Below are positions 11,581-28,307 of a stretch of 34,077 nucleotides of DNA, piece after piece (within the stretch, counting starts at the first letter, position 1; each line of letters starts with the position of its first letter). The DNA is taken from the IMG/VR virus record IMGVR_UViG_3300034061_000055, positions 1-34,077 of that record. One strand, 5' to 3'. The DNA is from a virus. The translations under genes and the position numbers were made by a program. The notes beneath the pieces are model-generated. The model searched no databases. It was not told the DNA's origin and saw only the letters and a program-made list of their open reading frames with translations.

Positions 11581-12531
11581 TTATGGCGTTAAATCCGCGA
11601 TAATTCCGTGAGCAGCTTGGTTACGAACTTCCAAGGTGTACTCGCACAGCAATTGTGTAGACTCATTGTCACCAGTTACAGCCAACTCGTTGGTCTGGAA
11701 TGGGCGCAAGAAAGCAACAGCAGCCATGTCAGGGTCAAGCACAAATGCTGTCTCGTCACAGTTATTGGTAGAAGTCATAAAGCGGTTGGGAACAACAGAA
11801 ACTGTTCCGAAGTCGCTCAAATAAACATCCGCAGCCGCCACGATAGTGGTAGGAGCATTGCTTGGGGCCATGAAGCGTTGAGCAGCGATACCAGCAAAAG
11901 CAGAAACAACTTGCTTGTGTGCAGGGTTGACCATCAACACTTTAGGATTGCCACCAGAAGCGTAAACGCTACGAATGACAGTCTTCAACAAGGCTTCTTC
12001 AAAGGTACGATTTGTACCATTAACACGAGCAGTTGTTCCCAAGTTACCAGCAACACCATCAGTACCGCCAGAGTAGTTGGTGTTCAACCATGCTTGCAGA
12101 CCACCCAATTTACGAGCAGTAGTAGAGTTGCCGTTAGCAGCAATCTGGTTGCTCAACAGGGTTGTTTCCATGTCACGCTTGATTTCGCTAGAAGCCTTGG
12201 CAAGTTGATAAGCCTTTTCAGACTTACGACCAGCTTTGTCAACAGCTTGCAAAGTGCCAGAAATCTTCACAGTTTTCTGTGCGATTTGGCAACGATTACC
12301 AACACGAGTGGTTGGAGACATAGTAGCGTCAGAAGCGGTGTCGCCTTCAACAGCAAAGTTAGACAGGGTTGCCGCTGCAAGACTATCCGTTTGCCACTCG
12401 TGCAAAACAGCAGTAGCCTTTGTCTTGCCAATGGAAGACATGAACGGGGTGTCTGTTGGTGAAATCGAGTAGATAACATCCGAGAGGTCTTCACGCATAC
12501 CGATTGCGGTATATGTTTGATAGGTAGCCAT
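11581..12531 (-). CDS. Major capsid protein (SU10-like)
   Basis: The 316-residue protein starts MATYQTYTAIGMREDLSDVI, then SPTDTPFMSSIGK (about 24-36). The mid part TRVGNRCQIAQKTVKISGT (96-114) and ELAVTGDNESTQLLCEYTL near the C-terminus fit the SU10_MCP/DUF5309 family of HK97-fold capsid proteins. The length is normal for the family and the protein lacks a separate protease. A scaffold gene directly precedes it and a strong terminator follows, so capsid mRNA may be kept separate and abundant. Codon use is more G/C-rich at third positions than in its neighbours, as expected for a highly expressed gene. Confidence 0.9.
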   Translation of the reverse strand: MATYQTYTAIGMREDLSDVIYSISPTDTPFMSSIGKTKATAVLHEWQTDSLAAATLSNFAVEGDTASDATMSPTTRVGNRCQIAQKTVKISGTLQAVDKAGRKSEKAYQLAKASSEIKRDMETTLLSNQIAANGNSTTARKLGGLQAWLNTNYSGGTDGVAGNLGTTARVNGTNRTFEEALLKTVIRSVYASGGNPKVLMVNPAHKQVVSAFAGIAAQRFMAPSNAPTTIVAAADVYLSDFGTVSVVPNRFMTSTNNCDETAFVLDPDMAAVAFLRPFQTNELAVTGDNESTQLLCEYTLEVRNQAAHGIIADLTP

Positions 12532-26074: not shown

Positions 26075-26175
26075 AAGTCACCAGTTAATTCCAATGCTTT
26101 GTTTATCAGGTGTAGAGGATATGGGATACCTTCACGCACCTTGTCTAGTAGTTTCATTGCGTCAAAGTAATTCAA
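26053..26175 (-). CDS. 40-residue early protein with TTG start
   Basis: Read from TTG at 26175, which overlaps the methyltransferase stop as TTGA. The product begins MNYFDAMKLLDKVREGIPYP and ends ELTGDLCIPEET. An ATG six codons later (26157) is an alternative start. The phrase ...LINKALELTGDL is familiar from small phage early proteins. Function unknown. It overlaps the 69-residue gene by 22 bases. Confidence 0.6.
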   Translation of the reverse strand: MNYFDAMKLLDKVREGIPYPLHLINKALELTGDLCIPEET

Positions 26176-26840
26176 AACATTGACTCCTGAACTTGTTTAA
26201 CAGGCTCATGCTCAAACAATTGTGCTTGTGAAATAGCTTGCTCTATGCGCTTACAAGCAATGTCAAAATACTTTGGCTCTCTTTCAATGCCAATAAATTT
26301 TTTACCCATTTGCATTGCAGCAACACCAGTAGTTCCGCTTCCCATGAATGGGTCAAGAATAGTTTTTGGAGATGGTTTACATTGCTCAATACACCATTTC
26401 ATAACAGCTATTGGTTTTTGTGTTGGATGTTCTTTCACATCTTTTAACGCCATTGCTCTTGAATAATTTATTCTTCTTGCGGCTTTGTGTTGATTTGTCC
26501 AAGCTAACTCAAAATCTGCTAATGAAAATCCATCTTGACATTTATCCCAAGAAAGCCAACCCATTGATGGAGGCAACCAGTCTGTAAAGTAGTTTCCACC
26601 CCAAACAATGACGATTTTTCCTTTTTCTAGAAATAAATCAAATGTTTGTTTTTCTGGTCTAACTTTATCCCAATGCAATTTTTCAAAGTTATTCCAACCT
26701 GCCATTCCACGACCACCTGCACTTTCAGCATTTATTCCATAAGGAGGGTCAGTAATGACAGCATCAACTTTGTCAATCAATGGCAAAACTTCTAAGCAAT
26801 CACCTAAATAAAGCGTTGCGTTACCAATTTCAACTTTCAT
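26172..26840 (-). CDS. DNA N6-adenine / N4-cytosine methyltransferase (beta order)
   Basis: The 222-residue protein has the catalytic DPPY (31-34) near the N-terminus, HPTQKP (138-143) and the AdoMet-binding DPFMGSGT (163-170) near the C-terminus. The catalytic motif before the AdoMet motif is the beta-class arrangement. It transfers a methyl group to exocyclic amino groups, perhaps guarding phage DNA against host restriction. No cognate nuclease lies beside it. It follows dcm, which overlaps its start by 11 bases, and it directly abuts the stop of the second frame inside dcm. Confidence 0.9.
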   Translation of the reverse strand: MKVEIGNATLYLGDCLEVLPLIDKVDAVITDPPYGINAESAGGRGMAGWNNFEKLHWDKVRPEKQTFDLFLEKGKIVIVWGGNYFTDWLPPSMGWLSWDKCQDGFSLADFELAWTNQHKAARRINYSRAMALKDVKEHPTQKPIAVMKWCIEQCKPSPKTILDPFMGSGTTGVAAMQMGKKFIGIEREPKYFDIACKRIEQAISQAQLFEHEPVKQVQESMF

Positions 26841-27561
26841 TTAAGATTCTCCAGGCACTTGCAACCACTCTTGGAACTTGTGCGTTTCCAATGGCTTTAA
26901 TTCTGTCCACTTGTCCGGGAAGTCCATTATAAGTTCGGCATAATCCGGGTGAAAATATTGAGCGCAATCCGGACTCATTCTTACCCACTCCGTTGTAAAA
27001 CTTCCCTTGTATTCTTGGCTTCCATAAAATCTTTTTTTCGCTGCTCCTCTCCACATACTTGTTACTGGAGTTGGTAGCCAACACCCAAATTCGTTCTCTC
27101 CTATGAGGTAATCCAATCGAGTCTGCTCCCAACACTCCCCATTTCGCATCAAACCCCATTTTGGCCAAGTCTCCGAGAACTCGGTCAAGTCCCCTACTAG
27201 TGAGTATTGGTGAGTTTTCCACGAACACGAATCTAGGTTGAACTTCGCAAATGATCCTCGCCATTTCTCTCCACATTCCAGAGGCTTCTCCATCAATTCC
27301 TGCCCCTTTTCCTGCGGAACTAATGTCTGTACATGGAAATCCTCCAGATACAACATCAACAATTTCTCGCCAAGGTTTTCCGTCAAAGGTTTGTACGTCA
27401 TCCCAAATTGGGAAAGGCGGGAGAAGTCCGTCATTTTGTCGGGCGCACAGTACGCTTGCTGGGTAGGCTTCCCATTCGACTGCACAAACTGTTCTCCAAC
27501 CAAGGAGGTGTCCACCAAGGATGCCTCCACCAGCGCCTGCGAAAAGAGCCAACTCATTCAT
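26830..27561 (-). CDS. dcm: DNA C5-cytosine methyltransferase
   Basis: The 243-residue protein shows the C5 series in order: LFAGAGGG (6-13), GGFPCTDIS (73-81, catalytic Cys77), VEN (114-116), LPHRRERIWVLA (151-162) and IGNAQVP (224-230). It is short for the family, with a small target-recognition region between about 165 and 215. It overlaps the replication gene as ATGA and the downstream methyltransferase by 11 bases. The gene carries a second, nearly full-length +1 open frame. Confidence 0.95.
   Translation of the reverse strand: MNELALFAGAGGGILGGHLLGWRTVCAVEWEAYPASVLCARQNDGLLPPFPIWDDVQTFDGKPWREIVDVVSGGFPCTDISSAGKGAGIDGEASGMWREMARIICEVQPRFVFVENSPILTSRGLDRVLGDLAKMGFDAKWGVLGADSIGLPHRRERIWVLATNSSNKYVERSSEKKILWKPRIQGKFYNGVGKNESGLRSIFSPGLCRTYNGLPGQVDRIKAIGNAQVPRVVASAWRILNES
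26841..27557 (-). CDS. Second reading frame inside dcm, candidate overprinted gene
   Basis: A 238-codon open frame, same strand, starting 4 bases after the dcm ATG and ending one base before the ATG of the next methyltransferase (TAAATG). The predicted protein is Trp- and Cys-rich: LDSCSWKTHQYSLVGDL (108-124 region), FSETWPKWGLMRNGECWE, GCWLPTPVTSMWRG and IMDFPDKWTELKPLETHKF. Separately encoded phage proteins with SCSWKT..SETWP..G-MRxGECW, LPTP and FPxxWTxLKPLET motifs appear familiar to me as an unannotated family adjacent to, or fused with, C5 methyltransferases. That memory is not a database result. Expression is unproven. Confidence 0.5.
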   Translation of the reverse strand: MSWLFSQALVEASLVDTSLVGEQFVQSNGKPTQQAYCAPDKMTDFSRLSQFGMTYKPLTENLGEKLLMLYLEDFHVQTLVPQEKGQELMEKPLECGEKWRGSFAKFNLDSCSWKTHQYSLVGDLTEFSETWPKWGLMRNGECWEQTRLDYLIGENEFGCWLPTPVTSMWRGAAKKRFYGSQEYKGSFTTEWVRMSPDCAQYFHPDYAELIMDFPDKWTELKPLETHKFQEWLQVPGES

Positions 27562-28307
27562 ACACCGCCTTTCATTTGTTTAGCAAATTGACGAATGTAG
27601 TCAGGCATAGGTGCAGCCTTCTTTTCGTCAGCTTTAATCTTTTCTAACGCAGGGTCAGGCTCATTCTTTGATGGAACTGTGAGCCTAACAATGTCAGCAG
27701 GATTTTGTTTTGGTGCATGAGTACTTCTCACCCAATTACGCCATGTAGCAAACCAATCTAGCTTCACACCTTTTTGACCAGCTTGGGATATCCAGTAATC
27801 CTTGAATTGGTCAAATGTTTTGGCAGGGTTAAGTTCTGGTCTTTGCTCAACACAAAAGTCTTCCCATTCTTTTGTTAAACAAGAATCAGAAGCGAGGCGT
27901 TTGCCGAGTGTCTTCTTCTCTTGGTTATTGGTTATTGGTTTATGGTTATTGGTTGCTATTGGGGTAGCATTAGGGGGGCTATTAGCCTCCTCATTAGGGG
28001 GTGTTCCCCACCTCTTAGCCGCCCCACGTTTTCCAGCCGCAGAGAACTCTTTGTATTGCTTAATCTCTTTATCAGCCCTTGGATTAACAAAACCTTCTGG
28101 TGTTGAAATAAAGAACTCATTGAGGACAGTCATTACATCTTCCTCATGGTCACGCATACCAATCTGACGAGCAATATCTCTATGCTTTATTGGTTGCTCA
28201 TGCAAGAAATAGAAATCAAGCAAACGTCTGTAAGCCAAGTCCTCGTAATGAGAAAGATGGTGCGTGTGACTCTTGTAGTCACCTATGTGAAACTGATAGT
28301 AGTGCAT
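27558..28307 (-). CDS. DUF1376-type replication protein
   Basis: The 249-residue protein begins with the DUF1376 pattern MHYYQFHIGDYKSHTHHLS and YEDLAYRRLLDFYFLHEQP (about 21-39), a winged-helix of phage initiators. A Gly/Lys-rich linker (KRGAAKRWGTPP) and a disordered Asn/Pro region (110-135) follow, then a DnaT-like C-terminal domain (FDQFKDYWISQAGQKGVKLD, WRNWVRS). It probably loads host helicase at the phage origin, which may lie in its own linker DNA. It precedes dcm in the leftward early operon. Confidence 0.8.
   Translation of the reverse strand: MHYYQFHIGDYKSHTHHLSHYEDLAYRRLLDFYFLHEQPIKHRDIARQIGMRDHEEDVMTVLNEFFISTPEGFVNPRADKEIKQYKEFSAAGKRGAAKRWGTPPNEEANSPPNATPIATNNHKPITNNQEKKTLGKRLASDSCLTKEWEDFCVEQRPELNPAKTFDQFKDYWISQAGQKGVKLDWFATWRNWVRSTHAPKQNPADIVRLTVPSKNEPDPALEKIKADEKKAAPMPDYIRQFAKQMKGGV
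27921..28001. repeat. Iteron-like repeats in the replication gene, candidate origin
   Basis: Plus strand TTGGTTATTG (27921-27930) is followed by GTTATTGG, GGTTATTGG and GGTTGCTATTGG, giving at least four close copies by 27962. CATTAGGGGG occurs twice (27968-27977, 27992-28001). They encode the disordered linker of the initiator. Lambda and related phages place origins in this position of the initiator gene. Confidence 0.5.

Follow-up and report, generated by a model that had tools for sequence, protein, structure and literature searches.

A phage C5-cytosine methyltransferase probably divided between two fully overlapping reading frames

The locus described here very probably encodes one heteromeric C5-cytosine DNA methyltransferase, similar to M.EcoHK31I, from two fully overlapping reading frames, judging from sequence comparisons, structural models and analogy with known enzymes. 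The locus lies on the minus strand of a 34,077-nucleotide viral stretch (IMG/VR record IMGVR_UViG_3300034061_000055, hereafter the window). One frame reads as a dcm gene of 243 codons (alpha), and its +1 frame (beta) is open for 238 codons (Table 1). A preliminary description of the window had noted that the beta ATG lies 4 nt after the alpha ATG and that the beta TAA touches the ATG of the next methyltransferase gene, and both junctions are confirmed. The same description credited the dcm frame with all C5 methyltransferase motifs, which is wrong. Alpha contains motifs I-VIII and X only, and the other frame holds a stretch shaped like motif IX. The description had overlooked both the incompleteness of the dcm frame and the second frame's supply of the missing piece.

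The junction sequences leave no spacing between the neighboring genes and the two overlapping frames. The alpha ATG overlaps the upstream stop codon in an ATGA arrangement, and alpha is likely translationally coupled to the upstream DUF1376 gene. At the other end, the downstream N6/N4 methyltransferase begins at 26840. The DUF1376 gene shares 98% identity with its counterpart at locus L042, but alpha next to it shares only 67%. This drop suggests that a recombination boundary lies close to the start of alpha and beta. Elsewhere in the window, a 284-codon ORF with a GTG start (11608-12462, plus strand) lies antisense to nearly all of a 316-aa minus-strand gene (11581-12531).

Table 1. Features of the overlapping locus and its neighbors, in window coordinates
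Feature	Coordinates	Strand	Basis
Upstream DUF1376 / primosomal-type gene; TGA overlaps alpha ATG	27558..28307	-	PF07120, phrog_3992, junction
Double start ATGAATG: alpha ATG 27561-27559, beta ATG 27557-27555	27557..27561	-	sequence; +4 offset; codon 2 bias
Alpha: predicted C5-methyltransferase large catalytic domain, motifs I-VIII and X, without TRD or motif IX; 243 aa	26830..27561	-	PF00145, phrog_363, AF2
Beta: +1 frame nested in alpha; N-terminal extension, FSETWPKWGLMRNGECWE, PTP-type TRD-like region, putative motif IX; 238 aa	26841..27557	-	phrog_1008
Alpha motif IV, GGFPC (catalytic Cys)	27331..27345	-	sequence
Alpha motif VI, FVFVENS (residues 111-117)	27211..27231	-	sequence
Beta conserved block SETWPKWG-L-MRNGECWE	27126..27176	-	sequence; conserved in A5
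Alpha motif VIII, RRERIW (residues 154-159)	27085..27102	-	sequence
Beta LPTP, start of TRD-like region	27066..27077	-	sequence; L360 and L368 carry the block in their alpha frame
Alpha 168-223: linker between VIII and X, place of the M.HhaI small domain	26893..27060	-	AF2 pLDDT < 50
Beta putative motif IX, HPDYAELIMDFPDKW	26907..26951	-	sequence; P-x6-M-x-[FWLY]-P pattern; spacing like LTPRECFRLQGF
Alpha motif X, IKAIGNAQVP	26872..26901	-	sequence; AF2 helix 230-242
Downstream N6/N4 DNA methyltransferase; ATG touches beta TAA, overlaps alpha end	26172..26840	-	PF01555 5.7e-25, junction

Division of motifs between alpha and beta

Alpha matches phrog_363 (1.8e-60) and PF00145 (1.8e-30), the latter confined to residues 4-176. 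Motifs I, IV, VI, VIII and X are all found in this one polypeptide, with GGFPC taken as motif IV. The gap between motifs VIII and X (RRERIW to GNAQVP) spans about 67 residues. In M.HhaI, the corresponding gap is roughly 140 residues. Inspection of the alpha frame revealed no TRD-sized region and no motif IX or LTPRECxRLQGF-like stretch. An AF2 model of alpha with 78 relatives reached a pLDDT of 75. It is confident for the large domain and for the helix of motif X, and it matches M.HhaI (2uyc) with Z 21.1 and rmsd 2.4 across 189 residues. At the low-confidence residues 168-223, alpha shadows the TRD-like region and motif IX of beta. Because the PF00145 match is partial, the VIII-X gap is short and the modeled large domain matches M.HhaI, the dcm frame is best read as the catalytic half of an enzyme. 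The analysis shows computationally that alpha lacks motif IX and a TRD, hence it does not unite these parts in the same polypeptide as a monomeric enzyme does.

The preliminary description had proposed a homology search of the 238-residue product. The search recovers phrog_1008, a 'DNA methyltransferase' family, at 1.2e-15 over residues 38-183, as well as homologues of the beta C-terminal part outside dcm shadows (see below). The C-terminal part consists of PTP, a variable region and then the pattern P-x6-M-x-[FWLY]-P (HPDYAELIMDFPDKW in the window), which is present in 192 of 219 betas. The spacing from P to GFP is the same as in motif IX of monomeric phage enzymes (LTPRECFRLQGF). Four of five such enzymes carry LTPRECFRLQGF or a near variant in frame by pattern match, and in the fifth, which ends at the edge of its stretch, LTEKECWRLQGF was taken by eye as motif IX. 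Staggered betas, a second layout described below, align with the monomeric enzymes in hhalign with IX on IX and X on X, though the match is weak (E 0.0014, probability 17%). The nested betas alone found nothing among the monomeric enzymes. The spacing, the fused homologues and the weak profile match together place motif IX in beta, with motifs I-VIII and X in alpha.

Other searches with beta returned little. Pfam and NCBIfam profiles gave no match, and the first 60 residues have no known relative. Against PDB sequences, the nested-beta profile recovered only a chance-like match (3nng, E 0.015) and the staggered betas none. The AF2 model of beta alone (107 sequences) is poor, with a pLDDT of 51 and a pTM of 0.24, and this low-confidence model matched no PDB structure, including the small domain of M.HhaI or M.HaeIII. 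The SETWPKWG-L-MRNGECWE block aligns with staggered betas at an hhalign E of 1.6e-25, but the FSETWP-PTP match carries little weight as it is mostly alpha shadow in both. Conservation of the beta N-terminal part may likewise be partly alpha shadow.

The correspondence of conserved words between the two frames, emphasized in the preliminary description, holds with one slight displacement. SCSWKT (beta 110-115) faces FVFVENS (alpha 111-117), in exact agreement with that description. WTELKPLET (beta 217-225) does lie opposite IKAIGNA, but the rest of IKAIGNAQVP is uncovered and the stretch actually faced is VDRIKAIGNA (alpha 218-227). Since the shadows of homologous dcm genes are themselves homologous, the mapping of words on words is in part trivial and is not evidence in itself.

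Nested, staggered and fused relatives

Relatives of the locus occur in three layouts, with 87 nested loci, 15 staggered loci (phase +1) and 7 loci flagged as in-frame ORFs. In the staggered form (e.g., BellusTerra gp80/79, Heather gp35/36, L329, L361 and L362), alpha ends after motif VIII and the +1 beta contains the TRD-like region, motif IX and its own motif X. Among the flagged in-frame ORFs, L360 and L368 each read cleanly as one ORF containing motifs I-VIII, the PTP region, IX and X. L302 and L331 were not counted as fusions, since the in-frame reading stops without motif X and both resemble frame-shifted genes.

An HMM of nested betas (Z=1000) matches the in-frame C-terminal part of the single-ORF enzymes (L360 at 1.4e-11, L368 at 1.1e-8) and the portion of the L329 staggered beta outside the alpha ORF (1.2e-12). 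The matches are weaker on annotated staggered betas, such as BellusTerra gp79 (4e-5). L360 matches phrog_363, phrog_116 and phrog_1008 simultaneously. Going by sequence, the matches in L360, L368 and the outside-alpha part of L329 cannot be a dcm shadow. These profile comparisons show computationally that the C-terminal half of beta is homologous to regions fused to alpha or staggered in relatives. In the two fusions (L360:1877-2959 and L368:2284-3543), the +1 frame encodes the beta N-terminal part up to the first PTP repeat, followed by a stop.

The staggered and fused forms are scattered among the nested ones in the alpha-domain tree, where well-supported branches force at least five and at least four label changes. 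For example, staggered L329 groups beside nested L332 and fused L360 beside nested L345. Five monomeric controls fall outside on a long branch. By the topology of this tree, staggered and fused forms have multiple origins within the nested set. Simple frame changes at the flanks of the TRD-IX block would interconvert the layouts.

Among E. coli genomes, a relative was found in only 4 of 5426, and the one inspected, PCP07014, is a pseudogene. In this prophage (L381:1201-1962), alpha has an internal stop and the beta frame a stop at the same place, with both halves lost together as judged from the sequence. At four bacterial loci (L099, L104, L120 and L157), the alpha frame is broken and beta is open or phase-changed, reflecting either sequencing error or decay.

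Beta could be a true overprinted protein that serves a different function, such as anti-restriction or regulation, next to an alpha that acts alone or is a degenerate methyltransferase. Helper proteins often adjoin methyltransferases in phages, and the missing Pfam and structural matches of beta and its N-terminus without relatives would suit such a role. We consider this unlikely, given that alpha lacks motif IX and a TRD, that the C-terminal half of beta stands in frame with alpha at the TRD-IX place in L360 and L368, and that related genes switch frames between the nested, staggered and fused layouts.

Coding signals in the +1 frame

Beta is in phase +1 at all 80 viral loci retrieved with the alpha profile. 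This set contains the nearest relatives and is the only one unbiased with respect to the +1 frame, as the other two were retrieved with beta (81 of 81 viral loci including the window, and 79 of 80 bacterial loci). The +1 frame is open in 149 of 149 non-redundant alphas, compared to 211 of 29,800 synonymous-codon permutations (0.7%). For the window alpha, the frame stays open in 11 of 20,000 such permutations. Openness is no general property of dcm genes, because the five monomeric phage dcm genes examined have 11-32 stops in the +1 frame.

The comparison of synonymous sites proposed in the preliminary description was performed, and third-position change is about half that of neighboring genes at equal identity. 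Among pairs with 85-90% of amino acids identical, the overlap has third-position differences of 0.204 versus 0.426 in 33 neighboring-gene control pairs, and d3/d1 is 1.5 versus 3.6. For pairs with at least 80% identity, d3/d1 ranges from 1.4-1.6 in the overlap versus 3.2-3.6 in neighboring genes. Low third-position change is expected here because the third position of alpha is the second position of beta. A permutation test on +1-frame identity (alpha median z 6.8) was dropped. The N6-MTase and DUF1376 controls often reached z 4-8 as well, in each of the two other frames, owing to incomplete saturation of synonymous sites.

The start region is also constrained. Beta starts at alpha+4 in 196 of 240 loci. 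Of 195 such alpha+4 genes, 192 use AAT as the second codon of alpha and none uses AAC. AAC at this codon would abolish the beta ATG, and elsewhere in alpha AAC is commoner than AAT (1122 vs 851). ATG serves as the start codon in 230 of 240 betas but only in 146 of 240 alphas. Computationally, both frames are shown to be under selection as coding sequence, and beta is with high probability a genuine protein. The conserved frame, the rates at the codon positions, the conserved start codon and homologues that are not shadows support the possibility of a genuine overlapping protein raised in the preliminary description.

Programmed frameshifting might instead join motifs I-VIII of alpha to the TRD-IX part of beta, replacing separate initiation of beta. 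A paper on frameshift prediction counts methyltransferases among the genes with known frameshifts (PMC10885494). In the staggered form, alpha stops just past motif VIII and beta continues in +1, such that a shift would rebuild a monomer. In the nested form, however, the product would lack motif X, which is encoded in alpha, and the conserved beta ATG at +4 together with the AAT-only codon 2 points to independent initiation, making frameshifting very unlikely. It is hardly credible that the +1 frame goes untranslated, as a shadow that stays open through the amino-acid and codon composition of dcm and whose database relatives are shadows of homologous dcm genes: homologous alphas do cast homologous shadows, control genes too show +1 and +2 identity above permutations, and the +1 frame is less stop-prone than +2 (mean 4.7 vs 13.2 expected stops), yet this leaves unexplained the 149 open frames, the halved third-position change, the choice of AAT alone at codon 2, the staggered and in-frame homologues outside any shadow, and the stops in monomeric dcm genes. 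The suggestion of a database family arising merely as a dcm shadow fails on the same homologues (staggered forms, L360 and L368) and stop counts.

Known systems, proposed mechanism and annotation

In EcoHK31I, the gene for the large polypeptide also encodes the small one in an alternative frame, and the window beta is likewise located in an alternative frame inside alpha. M.EcoHK31I (YGGCCR) and its isoschizomer M.EaeI are two-polypeptide C5 methyltransferases, with motifs I-VIII and X in the large polypeptide and IX in the small one (PMC3404938). Compared by description, this is the same motif split as between alpha and beta. The EcoHK31I TRD is located in the large subunit (PMC3404938), whereas the TRD-like region here would be in beta, going by the staggered and fused relatives, with alpha 168-223 being of low confidence. 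Beta also differs in its extent, beginning 4 nt downstream of the alpha start and covering almost the whole of alpha. M.AquI (CYCGRG) is another split C5 methyltransferase with two polypeptides completing one enzyme (PMC3404938), as is proposed for the window. The M.AquI small subunit has the distal TRD half, IX and X, while in the window alpha keeps X and beta is nested. The M.AquI layout is resembled more by the staggered form of mycobacteriophages (BellusTerra gp80/gp79) than by the nested form.

We suggest that alpha folds as the AdoMet-binding large domain, with the catalytic cysteine, motifs I-VIII and the helix of motif X, and that beta reads the DNA sequence and supplies the TRD-like region and motif IX missing in alpha. 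Both are probably translated from starts 4 nt apart behind a single ribosome-binding region and, because of this arrangement, made together. The two polypeptides would then assemble like a monomeric C5 methyltransferase with the small domain coming from a second polypeptide. We infer physical assembly of alpha and beta, a requirement for both and a DNA specificity of the complex. The benefit to the phage would most likely be protection from host restriction, as suggested by the phage setting with an adjoining N6/N4 methyltransferase.

The locus probably belongs to a large class of C5 methyltransferases in phages and prophages, for the most part unannotated, in which the recognition subunit is coextensive with the catalytic one in the +1 frame and its block has repeatedly switched between nested, staggered and fused layouts. 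The two-polypeptide kind is already published. Going by the open literature searched, what is new is the extent in phages, the coextensive layout and the repeated switching. That literature held no report of this phage class, although absence is not proof. The preliminary description had pointed to separately annotated relatives next to C5 methyltransferases, and these exist as phrog_1008 and as the annotated nested genes Lily gp63 and DevRi gp57. The PHROGs 'DNA methyltransferase' families phrog_363, matching alpha, and phrog_1008, matching nested and staggered betas, are kept separate, and PHROGs makes no mention of the one lying within the gene of the other. The pairs gp62/gp63 of Paenibacillus phage Lily and gp56/gp57 of DevRi resemble the window as annotated nested pairs, but their beta starts within alpha (around codon 62-68) and not 4 nt after the alpha start.

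Records usually annotate one frame only. Alpha alone is annotated in Salmonella phage S9-5, Microcystis phage Mel-JY01, mycobacteriophage Spikelee and an Acinetobacter plasmid. In Pseudomonas phage phPA-G (L082), only beta (1501-2229) is annotated, as a hypothetical protein, and the alpha frame (1497-2213) is omitted. Lily gp63 is labeled 'g62 internal gene', and the label on DevRi gp57 reads 'Not called by any program', hence individual annotators spotted the nested gene in these phages. Beta is left out of most genome annotations.

If the proposed two-frame enzyme is real, many 'DNA cytosine methyltransferase' genes of phages, prophages and plasmids would be inactive when cloned or modeled alone. 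Genomes with a lone 'dcm' would carry half the enzyme in their protein lists, and the specificity-setting subunit would be absent from protein databases, as the lack of Pfam and NCBIfam matches illustrates. The locus would also represent a rare long same-strand overlap that can be explained, with both frames being parts of one enzyme and sharing a start region. Unnested and fused relatives show the same parts outside the overlap. Such loci may provide a tractable system for the origin and reversion of nested genes.
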